Of a stretch of DNA of 64,000 nt, positions 58,000 through 62,439 are shown piece by piece. The stretch's first letter is position 1. Every line of letters begins with the position of its first letter. The notes beneath the pieces were generated by a model. It worked only from the letters and a program-made list of their open reading frames with translations. It did not search any database and had not been told where the DNA came from. This DNA comes from Candidatus Binatia bacterium (GTDB lineage: Bacteria; Desulfobacterota; Binatia; HRBIN30; BPIQ01): NCBI GenBank assembly GCA_026004195.1, contig BPIQ01000002.1:868585-932584 (forward strand), written 5' to 3'. The position numbers and the translations under genes were made by a program.

Positions 58000-59169
58000 C
58001 TACTTCTTCGGTGCCGAAGCGTGCAGGTGCTCGAAGATTTTCCGTGCGACGATCGCGTTCCCCTCGGGCGAGACATGGCAGAAGTCGATGTAGAAAGGAC
58101 GGTCGCCGTCGAAAGTTCCGGTGAGGTCGAGGACGGACGAACGGATCGGGTGGGAAGCGAGACGCTCTCGGATTTTCTCGTAGACGAGGCGGAAGGTCGG
58201 CCGGATCCCGAAGGGCTTTTCCAGGCGAGAGCCCAGGTGCTTCGTATAAGGGCGGCCTTCGAAAGCCACGGGCTGCAATACCGGCAGGAAACGCCCGCCG
58301 TGAGCCTCGACCAGAATCTTCGCCATCTGCCAGTTCGCCAGAAGGTTCTGGGCGATCAGGTCGGTCTTTTTCTCGTCGCAGGGGCAGTCGAAGGTGGAAC
58401 ACTCCCCGCGCGCTTTGCGGAAAAATTCCAGCTTCTGGATCTCCGCAGAAAGTGCGATCAGGTGCTCCAGGAAAAGAGCCCGGAGGGCTCGAAGCAGTCC
58501 CACGGATCTCCCGTGCTTTGCCGCCTCCCGCAGGTAGTTCACCCTGGCATGGCCCGGCACCACGTCCGTGAGCCGGGTGCATTGATGGTAGACGTCGTTC
58601 GCGCCGTCGTAGAAGACCACGACGTCCGGCCGGTGTCCGAGTGCGTAGAGTGTCACGAGCTGATCCAGCCCCTGGCGGCTGTTCCAGGCCGTCTCCGCGT
58701 AGTTCTCCACCGCATAGCGAGGTTCGAGACGGGCGAAGAGTGAGGGAATCGTGTGGGCGTCGTCGGAGCCTGTCCCCCACATGGCGGAGCCGCCGAAAAA
58801 GTACACGCTCCCGACTTTGGGACGCGACGGATCCGGGTCCACCGTCCGTCGCCGACCTTGTGTGTCGATTCGAAGCGTCACTCCCTCGAAGGGATCGCGT
58901 CGCCAGCCCACGAAGGGCCGGTAGCTCACGGTGGTGCTACGGAACTCCTCGAAAACGACCCTGGCGTACTCTCGATTCCCCTCGTAAACGGGAAGTTTCC
59001 AGCGATTGTCGCCCGCGAGGCCTCCGGGACGTTCGACCCACGCCAAGACGGCCCCGGTGATCGTATTGACGGAAAAAAGCAGGGCCAGAGTGACGAGGAG
59101 ATTCAGCCAGACCCACCGCGCCACTGTTTTCGCACGCGCTGGATCGAAGCGGCGAAAAGGGTCCGGCAT
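58000..59169 (-). CDS. SGNH/GDSL-type hydrolase-like membrane-anchored protein
   Basis: A 389-residue protein with an N-terminal membrane helix (VWLNLLVTLALLFSVNTITGAVLAWV) and a large soluble domain. VYFFGGSAMWGTGSDDAHTIPSLFARLE resembles SGNH block I (GGSxxxG), VVVFYDGANDVYH is block III (GxND), and FYIDFCHVSPEGNAIVA carries the DxxH of block V, so the catalytic Ser, Asn, Asp and His are all plausible. Such proteins are linked to O-acetyl or lipid esterase activity on envelope glycans. ATG 59169 follows GCAGG; longer starts exist. No glycosyltransferase cluster is adjacent. Confidence 0.78.
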   Translation of the reverse strand: MPDPFRRFDPARAKTVARWVWLNLLVTLALLFSVNTITGAVLAWVERPGGLAGDNRWKLPVYEGNREYARVVFEEFRSTTVSYRPFVGWRRDPFEGVTLRIDTQGRRRTVDPDPSRPKVGSVYFFGGSAMWGTGSDDAHTIPSLFARLEPRYAVENYAETAWNSRQGLDQLVTLYALGHRPDVVVFYDGANDVYHQCTRLTDVVPGHARVNYLREAAKHGRSVGLLRALRALFLEHLIALSAEIQKLEFFRKARGECSTFDCPCDEKKTDLIAQNLLANWQMAKILVEAHGGRFLPVLQPVAFEGRPYTKHLGSRLEKPFGIRPTFRLVYEKIRERLASHPIRSSVLDLTGTFDGDRPFYIDFCHVSPEGNAIVARKIFEHLHASAPKK

Positions 59170-59349
59170 CCTGCATCGAGACAAAATCCGCGAACGAAAA
59201 AGTTGCACCACCGTTTCGCCTCCCGCAATGCCCCGTGGGCGGCTCCCCCGAAATATCGACCGCGTCGAGTCGCCGGGGTACGCGACCCGCAACGATCAAG
59301 ATTAGCCCCGCGCACGCGAAACGTCGACGACAACGCGACACACTCTCGG

Positions 59350-60576
59350 CTACCCCACACCTAGGGCGTGGACGAACCCGACGAGGTCCGCGGCGTCCAC
59401 CGAGCCGTCTTCGTTGACGTCGGCTCCCGTGCAAACCGGGAAAATCCCGGCGCAGAAAGCCGTCGCTTCGTCTCCGTCGAAGATCTCGGCGAGGAGAAGT
59501 TCGAGGTCCGAGGATTCGAGAAAGCCGTCTCCGTCCACGTCGCCCGCCGAGGAAGGACAACAGCGGGCGGGCTCCGGGGTCGGGGAGGCCGGCACGGGCG
59601 TGGGTGTCGGAAGCCGAGGAGTCGGCGTGGCCGACGGAGTGGGGGTGGGGCTCGCCGTAGCCGCTCCCGGGGAGGTCGGGGTCGGAGTGGGACGAGGCGA
59701 AGAAGTGGGGGTCGAGCTCGGACCTAGCGGCGGCGTCGGATAGGCAGTCGGCGTAGGCGCTTCGGGCCAGGGGCAAGAATGGATGGCCACGACGGCGTCG
59801 AGGTCGAAGCCGGCCGTTCCCGGGCCGGGCAGCCGATTGCCGGGATCCTCGACCAGGTCACCCGCATCCAGGATCCGCACGAATGCGGCCCACTCGAGCC
59901 CCACGGCGGCGAGATCGAAAGAATCTCCGCCGGAAATCCGCGGATCGGTGGGATCGATCCCGTTCGACGTGTTCGAAAGGACCGGCGTGCGACCGGCCAA
60001 CCCTTCCCAGCTCACGGGGTCGAAGGGAAAGGTGCGGAAGTCCTTCCCGTCGCGACTTGCCGCCACGATGCCGAGCTCCGCGAACACGCCCGTGCCGAAA
60101 CGAAAAGGGTTCTCGAAGACGGTGAAGTCCGGGCCGGGGCCGTCGCAGATCACCTCGTCGAGAAAACCGAGGACGATCTCCCCGCCGTGGCCGAGCGAGA
60201 GAACGTCGAGGGAACCCTGGCTCTCCCCGCCTCCCTCCGGCGGGCCCAGCACCACCTGCGGGAACCGGTCTTGCCCGTAGCCGGCACCGGGCCCGGGGTG
60301 GAAAGCAACGACGGAATCCGCGAAGGGATCGGCGAAAGACGGGGCGGCGAAAGAAAGCAAGGCGGCAAAGGCAAGACTCGGAAAGAAACGAGCGCGGACG
60401 AAAGAAAGAAAAGCGGCCAGACCGCGACCCGAGAGCGAGAAGGCGGGAGCAAGTCTTCGGTTCCGCCCCGTCCAACGAGCGCCCCTCGAAGGCCGGGGAG
60501 GCCGGCTCCCGGCCCGGCGACCGGAAGCCGGCCGATCCCCTTCAGGAACTCGGGAGACAGACGAGCCGCAAGGCAT
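59350..60576 (-). CDS. Secreted surface protein with Thr/Pro linker and C-terminal dockerin-like domain
   Basis: Signal peptide core (FFPSLAFAALLSFAAPSFA) near residues 64-82, then a globular domain of about 175 residues with DSVVAFHPGPGAGYGQDRFPQVVLGPPEGGG, DVLSLGHGGEIVLGFLD, DGPGPDFTVFENPF and WAAFVRILD. A Thr/Pro/Ser linker of about 80 residues follows, then two Ca-binding dockerin-type repeats, DVDGDGFLESSDLELLLAEIF and DVNEDGSVDAADLVGFVHAL. The globular part resembles proteins annotated as cell surface protein that accompany cobalamin-uptake genes in other phyla (recalled, unverified). The start codon is uncertain: ATG 60576 overlaps the upstream gene by 35 bases and leaves a long charged region before the signal core. 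It is second in the riboswitch-controlled operon. Confidence 0.78.
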   Translation of the reverse strand: MPCGSSVSRVPEGDRPASGRRAGSRPPRPSRGARWTGRNRRLAPAFSLSGRGLAAFLSFVRARFFPSLAFAALLSFAAPSFADPFADSVVAFHPGPGAGYGQDRFPQVVLGPPEGGGESQGSLDVLSLGHGGEIVLGFLDEVICDGPGPDFTVFENPFRFGTGVFAELGIVAASRDGKDFRTFPFDPVSWEGLAGRTPVLSNTSNGIDPTDPRISGGDSFDLAAVGLEWAAFVRILDAGDLVEDPGNRLPGPGTAGFDLDAVVAIHSCPWPEAPTPTAYPTPPLGPSSTPTSSPRPTPTPTSPGAATASPTPTPSATPTPRLPTPTPVPASPTPEPARCCPSSAGDVDGDGFLESSDLELLLAEIFDGDEATAFCAGIFPVCTGADVNEDGSVDAADLVGFVHALGVG

Positions 60577-61996
60577 CGCGGTCCCGGCGACCGTCGGCAG
60601 CGCGTACGGCGACCCGCACCTTCCCGCCTCCCGGCTTTTTCTCGCCGCTCTTTTTCACGCGCACCGGTACCTCGATGCCGTCCGTGAAAAAGCACCGCGA
60701 GGCCGAGAGAGGTAAAGCCGCCGAGACCCGCTCGCTCGTCGCCCGCGCGGTGGGCAAGTTCGGCGAGACCCGAAGAGCCACGTCTTCGACGGCGGTCGAG
60801 ACGCTGCACTCCGGAAGCGCGGGGTCGTCGACCAGGAGGCAAAAGCCCAGGGGAAAGAGGCACCTGTCGTCGGCCTTCCCGTCCGCATCGCACAGGTCCC
60901 CGTCCGTGCATACCGCGTGCTTCGGGGGCTTTCCGGGTGCGAGCGGAGCGAGGGCGACCCCGTAGAATTCGTGGAGGCAGTCCGAGCTTTTCCGGCCCCC
61001 GCCCCGGACGAGCCGGCTCACCGGAACGAAACGGTGCACCGTTCGGTCCTCGTCCGTTCCGCTGAAGCTCGAAAGGATCGACACCCGCCCCGTGAAGGGA
61101 TCGACGGAGACACCCGTCGCGAACGTGAGGCCACCGACGAAGGGTTGGGACGTCCCGGAAAGCTCGAAAGCCACGACGTCGCCGCCGAAAGCGCCGGTTG
61201 CGAGGAGCCGCCCGTCCAGGTCGAAGGCGAGGTCGAACGACCCGAAGCCGAAACTCGGCCCCGCGAACGGCACGGGCGGCACGGGGGAACCCGAAGAGTC
61301 GAACCGGGTGATCTGCGACTCGAAGGTGCCGAGCGCTTCGGCCACGAACACGTCGGAAGTCGGCGGATGCACGGCGAGGCCGCCCGTGAAATCGAACCCA
61401 CCCGCGAACGTCGTGACGGCCGCGGTCACGGGATCGATCGAGAGCACTTCTCCCGCGCCGCCTCCGGCGGCGTTGCCGACCAGCACACTTCCGTCGGGAG
61501 CCACGGTGACGCTTGCCGCGAAAGGAACGCTTCCCCCGGGAACGAGTTCGAGTCCCGAGGCCGAAAGGGCGCTCGCCGCCGACGCATCGGGAACACGGAA
61601 CACCGTGTCGCCACCGAGCGCTCCCGGAAGTTCGGCCGGAGAGGCGTTGTCCGTCACGTAGAGCGCGTCGGTCGCCCGGTCGTACGCGCAGTCGCCGATC
61701 GAGTTGAAACCGAAGGCCACGAGCCGGGCCTCTCCGGACTCCTTGACGAAGACCACGGCTTGCGCGTTGGCCGTGAATCCGGGCCCCACACCGACGAAGG
61801 TGCCGCCCGGGCCCGCCGCGACGCAGCTCTGCGTCGGGCTCCCGAGGACGAGCGGGTCGAACACGTAGCCCGGTGGCGTGGAGACGACGGCACCGGCCGG
61901 AATCGGCCACGCGAAAAACCCGACCAACGCGAAAGTCCCGACCAAAAGGAGCTTGGAAAGACTCCTCGCGATTCGTTCGCACGCTGTTCGCTTCAT
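60542..61996 (-). CDS. Secreted beta-propeller protein under a cobalamin riboswitch (BtuG-like candidate)
   Basis: A 484-residue exported protein. Signal peptide (LSKLLLVGTFALVGFFAWPIPAGA) is followed by about 320 residues of NHL/SMP-30/YncE-like propeller strands (GGTFVGVGPGF, ATDALYVTDNAS, SVTVAPDGSVLVGNAAGGG, GLAVHPPTSDVFVAEALG, DLAFDLDGRLLATGAFGG, GVSVDPFTGRVSILSSFSG). A C-terminal domain of about 120 residues with several Cys (CLHEFYG, AVCTDGDLCDADGKADDRC) ends at 60542. ATG 61996 has GGAGGGAG upstream. In Bacteroidetes the propeller BtuG captures cobalamin for BtuB. The riboswitch upstream makes a similar cobalamin-linked role plausible, though no BtuB is present and no direct homology to BtuG can be shown here. 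Confidence 0.82.
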   Translation of the reverse strand: MKRTACERIARSLSKLLLVGTFALVGFFAWPIPAGAVVSTPPGYVFDPLVLGSPTQSCVAAGPGGTFVGVGPGFTANAQAVVFVKESGEARLVAFGFNSIGDCAYDRATDALYVTDNASPAELPGALGGDTVFRVPDASAASALSASGLELVPGGSVPFAASVTVAPDGSVLVGNAAGGGAGEVLSIDPVTAAVTTFAGGFDFTGGLAVHPPTSDVFVAEALGTFESQITRFDSSGSPVPPVPFAGPSFGFGSFDLAFDLDGRLLATGAFGGDVVAFELSGTSQPFVGGLTFATGVSVDPFTGRVSILSSFSGTDEDRTVHRFVPVSRLVRGGGRKSSDCLHEFYGVALAPLAPGKPPKHAVCTDGDLCDADGKADDRCLFPLGFCLLVDDPALPECSVSTAVEDVALRVSPNLPTARATSERVSAALPLSASRCFFTDGIEVPVRVKKSGEKKPGGGKVRVAVRAADGRRDRDALRLVCLPSS

Positions 61997-62150
61997 TTCT
62001 CCCTCCCTCTCTCTTTGTGTTTCCGCCCGCCGCGCGCCGCCGCGCGGCGAGCAGGATGCAATTTCGGATCGACCGTGCTCGTCCTTTTCGCGGGCGAGGG
62101 CGGTGGCTCCCGCGCACGGCCGGGTCTTTCCCGGCGCCGGCAGCGCCGAC

Positions 62151-62183
62151 AAAAAACCCGGCGACGCTCGTTTGCGCCCCGGG
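62151..62183 (-). terminator. Intrinsic terminator in the cobalamin riboswitch leader
   Basis: On the minus strand CCCGGGGCGC (62183 to 62174) pairs with GCGTCGCCGGG (62167 to 62157) around loop AAACGA, with one bulged G, followed by six T (62156 to 62151). It sits 65 bases after the aptamer and 155 bases before the start codon, as expected for a riboswitch that ends transcription when B12 is bound. Confidence 0.82.
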
Positions 62184-62248
62184 TTCGGGAGGGAGAATTC
62201 TTTTGCGGCATTCTCGTCCCCGCACCCCGGAGGACTTCGAACTCCGCT

Positions 62249-62402
62249 GCTGGGCCAGGTCTCCTGACTCCCGGCGACCTACTCGCGGCGCCTTCCCATC
62301 CCGGAGGACAGTGGCGTTCTGCCGCTTTCGTTCCGGTTACAGTGGCGGGGGCCGTGCCGGCTTCTCACCGGCTTCCCTTGACCCACCAGCTATGTTCTGG
62401 TC
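62249..62402 (-). ncRNA. Cobalamin (B12) riboswitch aptamer
   Basis: Read on the minus strand: GCTGG (5' side of P1) ... AAGGGAAGCCGGTGAGAAGC, then GGCCCCCGCCACTGTAA (the conserved core that includes the B12-box-like GCCACTG), a variable P7-P9 region with the second CCACTGTCC, and AGTCAGGAGACCTGGCC closing with CCAGC pairing to the first GCTGG. These are the diagnostic elements of the AdoCbl/MeCbl-type cobalamin riboswitch. Direction and position point to the propeller gene at 61996 and the dockerin-tailed gene behind it. With the terminator downstream, it should switch transcription off when cobalamin is plentiful. Confidence 0.94.
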
Positions 62403-62409
62403 GGCGGGC

Positions 62410-62439
62410 TAGCTAGCCGAACGGGTTCGGGCCTGTCAA
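62410..62439 (-). promoter_or_regulatory. Sigma70 promoter of the cobalamin riboswitch operon
   Basis: On the minus strand TTGACA (62439 to 62434), an 18-base spacer, and TAGCTA (62415 to 62410). The -35 is a perfect consensus. Transcription would start at about 62403, just before the aptamer, so the whole leader of about 400 bases is explained. Confidence 0.7.

Follow-up and report, generated by a model that had tools for sequence, protein, structure and literature searches.

The 64-kb stretch of DNA from a Candidatus Binatia bacterium that was analysed here (the window) carries on its minus strand a cobalamin riboswitch followed by the genes of two exported proteins, a six-bladed propeller protein (P0001) and a protein with a compact domain homologous to the vitamin B12 (cobalamin) binder BtuH (P0002). 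We read this unit, with a probability of about 0.78, as a B12-repressed, extracellular cobamide-capture module that serves a BtuB-BtuG receptor encoded elsewhere in the genome. When cobamides are scarce, the riboswitch would stay empty and the terminator behind it would be avoided, so that the two exported proteins would be made. The BtuH-type domain of P0002, perhaps held in place by a dockerin-like tail, would then most likely bind cobamide outside the outer membrane, while the acidic propeller P0001 would most likely assist in binding or relaying the cobamide, which would finally pass to the BtuB-BtuG receptor and the BtuFCD importer of a separate riboswitch operon. In this picture, the riboswitch with its terminator, the conserved linkage, the homology to BtuH, the separate receptor operon and the lack of MetE and CbiC are computational results, and repression by B12, a surface location, cobamide binding by the two proteins and transfer to BtuB-BtuG are predictions. 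The idea of a surface-based B12-capture module in another phylum, or of one with its receptor elsewhere, had been put forward in a first-pass annotation of this DNA and is well supported by the riboswitch, the conserved pairing of the two genes, a btuB operon behind a second riboswitch and a predicted dependence on B12.

The aptamer is the sole Rfam match within the window, covers the full-length RF00174 model and lies far above the gathering score of 31.5 bits (Table 1), and the cobalamin aptamer of the first-pass annotation is thereby borne out. The terminator that had been read after it is likewise present as a GC-rich, bulged hairpin, which was missed by a terminator scan and found by folding. 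Leaders from seven genomes of the order, the window genome included, were checked for a like element (CCCGGG-CG stem and T6), which is present in six (G000, G003, G006, G007, G010, and G013) but not in G005. It is absent from most other families with compared leaders, and these may be regulated differently.

Linkage of the pair to B12 loci is conserved, and homologues in related genomes are consistently found with B12 riboswitches. Each of the 21 Binatia loci examined (that of the window genome included) has a same-strand match to RF00174 at a distance of 87-290 bp ahead of the P0001 homologue; these Binatia genomes contain only 1-4 cobalamin riboswitches each. Families f4 and f10 as well as two genomes of f3 show the order riboswitch, P0001, P0002, BtuB, BtuG, with BtuF and BtuC following in f4 and diverging nearby in f3. 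The pair is found without BtuB in genome G000 and in families f7, f9, f13, and f15. In genomes G044, G052, and G057, a second riboswitch adjoins btuB and btuG, and the pair is therefore separated from btuB, as it is here, in at least three families besides that of the window genome. Two genomes (G002 and G009) carry a BtuG-like propeller in place of P0001. Compared to canonical btuBFCD loci under a cobalamin riboswitch, the regulator is the same and the pair precedes btuB in many relatives, whereas the receptor operon of the window genome is separate and has its own riboswitch.

Two loci show further arrangements of these genes. At L125 (G025:C43:165214-166739), a P0001-type propeller stands directly behind its own cobalamin riboswitch, and no P0002, BtuB, or BtuG was found nearby. 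At L122 (G021:C9:107000-125000), 18 kb hold tandem copies of BtuG-like, P0002-like, and P0001-like genes along with three cobalamin riboswitches, and BtuB is led by the fourth such riboswitch, at C9:170797.

The connection to known B12-binding proteins is provided by the P0002 domain that had been noted for its DGPGPDF sequence, not by the propeller. P0002 comprises a signal (residues ~60-82), the BtuH-like core (~82-268), a Thr/Pro-rich linker, and the dockerin-like tail (~344-404). Single-sequence searches of the PDB with P0001, P0002, and P0003 (a lipoprotein propeller encoded elsewhere in the genome, see below) gave nothing useful and were insufficient, and the relations of the three families were sought with family profiles instead. 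For the P0002 family, BtuH2 (7BIZ; PMC8941943) was the sole PDB match (E 0.006). An AlphaFold2 model of the core (predicted local distance difference test score, pLDDT, of 91) matches BtuH2 with Z 13.9 (root-mean-square deviation, rmsd, 2.8 over 152 residues, 21 % identity) and the H-domain of BtuG1 (8BLW_B) with Z 13.2 (rmsd 2.8, 155 residues, 26 % identity), followed by CBM32 and discoidin domains at Z of at most 9.3. In Bacteroidota genomes, the P0002 profile yields weaker matches to proteins that lie directly behind btuB/btuG or are fused to BtuG, the very placement of known BtuH and BtuG1, and a profile-profile comparison of the P0002 family with four of these proteins gave a probability of 96.8 % (E 2.6e-10). 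L045, which diverges from the other family members, had no BtuH match on its own. The P0002 core is homologous to BtuH, in a compact form.

The 66-residue spacing from Gln333 to Asn399 in the alignment of the profile with 7BIZ allows both of these B12 contacts of BtuH2 to be identified: Asn399 aligns with the invariant Asn of the GPDFTVFEN motif (Asn156 in P0002), and Phe401 with a nearly invariant Phe two residues further on (Phe158). P0002 thus shares with BtuH of Bacteroides thetaiotaomicron (BtuH2, BT1956, and the BtuG1 H-domain) a homologous domain that keeps equivalents of Asn399 and Phe401, that sits in B12-riboswitch transport loci and that is known in fusion with BtuG-like propellers in both cases. 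It differs in its length of ~190 instead of ~280 residues, in its host outside the Bacteroidetes, and in having a dockerin-like tail and no lipobox, whereas BtuH is a surface lipoprotein. DUF4465/BtuJ was considered for the core and rejected, as none of the 41 domain-family members described below matches Pfam DUF4465; DUF4465 is also absent among the structural matches listed for the core. BtuJ/DUF4465 proteins (PDB 9FCT, 9I2L), which occur in many phyla tied to TonB receptors and propellers, resemble P0002 as exported beta-sandwich proteins of B12 loci with lineage-specific tails (PMC12751083, PMC13398666), whereas the P0002 core has no Pfam match to DUF4465 or any other family.

Homologues of the P0002 domain were aligned from 41 distant loci (alignment A1); Pfam holds no entry for the domain. 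The records bear the names Binatia, KSB1, Sumerlaeota, Fermentibacteria, Verrucomicrobiales, Myxococcales, and Deltaproteobacteria, and furthermore Kapabacteria, Ignavibacteria, Melioribacteraceae, Chlorobiota, and Bacteroidetes. A same-strand riboswitch lies upstream at 25 of the 41 loci, BtuB is present at 24 and a propeller at 28, and 33 have either a riboswitch or BtuB. In L009 and L019, the P0002-type domain is fused to a BtuG-like propeller, which is the architecture of Bacteroides BtuG1 (PMC10404256). Nearly all members (40/41) match the NCBIfam model NF033170 of the Leptospira LIC_13355 lipoprotein (best E 5.9e-18), whereas P0002 itself is well under the cut-off of the model (36 vs 120 bits) and the Leptospira proteins are lipid-anchored. 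Investigations of LIC_13355 have dealt only with its binding of host components, not with B12 (PMC11891782); judging from this family resemblance, it may be a B12-capture lipoprotein. On a Fermentibacteria contig (L015:7467-7884), two cobalamin riboswitches on opposite strands are arranged back to back with 28 bp between them, and one of them faces a P0002-like gene.

A receptor for the putatively captured ligand is encoded elsewhere in the window genome (3.63 Mb, 98.9 % complete), where the second of its two cobalamin riboswitches leads an operon of five transport genes. Its TonB-dependent receptor falls far below the TIGR01779 cut-off and is assigned to BtuB because of the operon and of PDB matches that include E. 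coli BtuB. The propeller gene behind it encodes P0003, a lipoprotein with an LAAC lipobox whose family profile matches BtuG1 (8blw_B, E 2.5e-36) and BtuG2 (3dsm, E 2.2e-16), and which is followed by BtuF-, BtuC-, and BtuD-like genes; the operon therefore reads as btuB-btuG-btuF-btuC-btuD. The earlier description of the unit as lacking BtuB accordingly holds for the operon in the window and not for the genome. The B12-dependent methionine synthase MetH is present, and genome searches found neither MetE nor CbiC/CobH, so the organism, which appears to be unable to make B12, is predicted from its gene content to depend on external, salvaged cobamide. CbiC is also absent in 12 of the 13 other carriers.

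P0001 consists of a Sec signal without a lipobox (residues ~1-36), a propeller (~39-327), and a Cys-rich C-terminal module (~327-484). The model (pLDDT 81) has six blades between residues 39 and 327, and the six-bladed Pizza6 and NHL domains align with the propeller over its whole length (Z 27-29). Its only NCBIfam match, to ScyD/ScyE, is below the cut-off (43.7 vs 80 bits), a PDB search with its profile returned no match to BtuG, and comparison with the BtuG-like profile gave only a partial, repeat-like match of 122 columns. An assignment as BtuG was rejected and the hint of the first-pass annotation in that direction is not supported: P0001 shares with BtuG (BtuG2, PDB 3DSM; a YncE-type seven-bladed lipoprotein) that it is an exported, acidic propeller, and it takes the operon position held in some relatives by a BtuG-like one, whereas it has six blades instead of seven, lacks a lipobox and belongs to a separate sequence family, and the BtuG homologue of this genome is P0003, next to btuB in the other operon. 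The propeller counts 28 Asp and Glu against 9 Lys and Arg. BtuG2 binds B12 with a negatively charged face (PMC10404256), and an acidic P0001 would be suited to attract a cationic corrinoid in the way proposed for BtuG2, although this analogy is only suggestive.

Several findings weigh against the capture module as described. P0001 has no sequence relation to any known B12 binder in sequence and profile searches of the PDB. Of the BtuH2 contacts to B12, only the equivalents of Asn399 and Phe401 can be placed in P0002: Gln333 corresponds to Ala98 (Gln in some other family members), the placement of Trp577 is not certain, and the compact domain seems to lack the region for His476, Tyr510, and Trp511, which is why we term it BtuH-like rather than BtuH proper. 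Eight of the 41 distant loci have neither riboswitch nor BtuB, several of these eight being cut by contig ends. As both proteins lack a lipobox, and P0002 has no Cys after its signal peptide, their surface location can only be presumed. Finally, a zinc/manganese-type ATP-binding cassette (ABC) transporter and a ZnuA/AztC-like protein adjoin the pair in families f7 and f13. Taking these points together with the evidence above, P0002 would probably bind cobamide, while for P0001 the odds of binding or relaying cobamide would be about even. With the balance tipped slightly against it, P0001 may even represent a new class of cobamide-binding surface proteins, a six-bladed propeller that stands in for BtuG. 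Together with the BtuH-type domain, it would then form a B12 trap, secreted or tethered through the dockerin, that operates at a distance from the receptor; such traps would occur in Binatia and, as regards the BtuH part, across half a dozen phyla.

The most serious competitor to the capture module as a joint function of both proteins, possible but rather doubtful in our view, is that P0002 alone captures cobamide and that P0001 is a structural or anchoring partner or simply a co-regulated propeller of other function. The missing relation of P0001 to known B12 binders would fit this view, as would the P0002-type domains that occur without P0001 in other phyla, but P0001 stands without P0002 behind a riboswitch of its own in G025:C43, a BtuG-like propeller occupies its operon position in G002 and G009, and the propeller of P0001 is acidic like the negative B12-binding face of BtuG2 (PMC10404256). 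The P0002 core might also be a carbohydrate-binding module of the CBM32/discoidin kind, the pair being an adhesion or matrix factor that merely follows B12 status. Such domains are indeed the next structural matches (Z ~8-9) and dockerins are common in glycan-binding proteins; yet BtuH2 and the BtuG1 H-domain score 4 Z units above them, its association with B12 loci holds across phyla for the P0002 domain, and the authors of the BtuH2 study judged a modest likeness to the alginate lyase AlyQ to be unrelated to B12 binding (PMC8941943), which renders this explanation quite unlikely. That the riboswitch regulates the pair by mere chance of neighbourhood, without any role in B12 uptake, would be in line with the lack of a classical B12 gene in the window operon; it is, however, already contradicted by a linkage kept in Binatia and at the majority of distant loci despite so few such riboswitches per genome, and can be regarded as extremely improbable.

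The metal transporters deserve separate consideration. They lie at L105:7361-12044 and L116:8127-10980. The usual metal-ligand histidines seem by eye to be present in the ZnuA/AztC-like protein, the open reading frame of which overlaps the end of P0002 by 4 bp in L105, and a metal role of the pair may conceivably exist there. The corresponding general explanation, namely that the pair is made under B12 control to take up zinc, manganese, or cobalt instead of cobamide, could also draw on the fact that cobalt importers under B12 riboswitch control are known. We nevertheless consider it very unlikely, since BtuB, BtuG, BtuF, and BtuC are the neighbours in other families, the ABC genes of L116 lie on the other strand and point towards the pair, and cobalt for B12 synthesis would be useless to most carriers because they lack CbiC.

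How B12 is captured at the surface before it reaches BtuB has been elucidated in gut Bacteroides. BtuG was reported to be restricted to Bacteroidetes under the BlastP criteria that were applied (PMC6143338), and BtuH, from gut Bacteroidetes, was described as a domain that lacks known structural homologues (PMC8941943). In the literature, of which most subscription journals were not covered, no description of BtuH-type domains or of the six-bladed propeller outside Bacteroidetes was found, and such B12 catchers had not been described in this bacterial group. In the present data, homologues of BtuG and BtuH, together with an unrelated propeller family, occur at loci with B12 riboswitches in environmental bacteria of several phyla, and many of these bacteria are apparently B12-dependent. 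These findings point to B12 capture at the surface as a general strategy. They also provide an unnamed domain that lacks a Pfam entry with a function open to testing, and they cast the Leptospira LIC_13355 lipoproteins in a new light.

Table 1. Positions of the riboswitch leader, the genes and the BtuH-like core in the window.
Feature	Positions	Strand	Basis
Cobalamin riboswitch aptamer	62236..62401	(-)	RF00174, 97 bits, E 6e-23, model 1-189
Intrinsic terminator (expression platform)	62151..62185	(-)	hairpin AACCCGGGGCGCAAACGAGCGTCGCCGGG then T6, ~-20 kcal/mol by folding
TTGACA, -35-like hexamer, perfect	62434..62439	(-)	sequence; no consensus -10 after it
Ribosome-binding site GGGAGGGAGAA	61997..62007	(-)	sequence; directly precedes ATG 61996; strong
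P0001, exported six-bladed propeller protein, 484 residues	60542..61996	(-)	open reading frame
P0002, exported protein with GPDFTVFEN domain, 408 residues	59350..60576	(-)	open reading frame; start codon uncertain
BtuH-like core coding stretch, residues 76-275, invariant GPDFTVFEN motif	59752..60351	(-)	alignment A1, structure match, profile-profile comparison

As regards the remaining parts of the leader and operon (Table 1), the ribosome-binding site and the two exported proteins of the first-pass annotation were recovered, and a promoter upstream of the aptamer is only half supported: the -35 hexamer stands, while no consensus -10 follows it and a sigma-70 scan found no full promoter. The first ATG of P0002 overlaps the P0001 stop and lacks a clear Shine-Dalgarno sequence, which leaves the true start uncertain. 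An SGNH/GDSL-like hydrolase gene (58000-59292, minus strand) lies directly downstream of P0002, and no terminator was found between the two. It was rejected as a third operon member, as relatives carry btuB or unrelated genes at that place; co-transcription with the pair is possible, without support from relatives.

The dockerin-like tail of P0002, which had also been recognized before, marginally passes the cut-off of PF00404, the type I dockerin model (23.8 vs 22.9 bits), and has two DxDxDG-like loops; similar tails recur in other proteins of the window genome. Judged by eye, the tails of P0002 homologues are dockerin-like, Cna-B-like, or other in Binatia, while those of KSB1 and Bacteroidota relatives resemble type IX secretion sorting domains, and the domain thus seems to be delivered by whichever tail a lineage uses, as lineage-specific tails have likewise been described for DUF4465 proteins (PMC12751083). 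The C-terminal module of P0001 (window 60542-61018, residues 327-484) contains 8 Cys in 159 residues and recurs C-terminally in dozens of otherwise different proteins of Binatia genomes, possibly as a sorting or anchoring domain.

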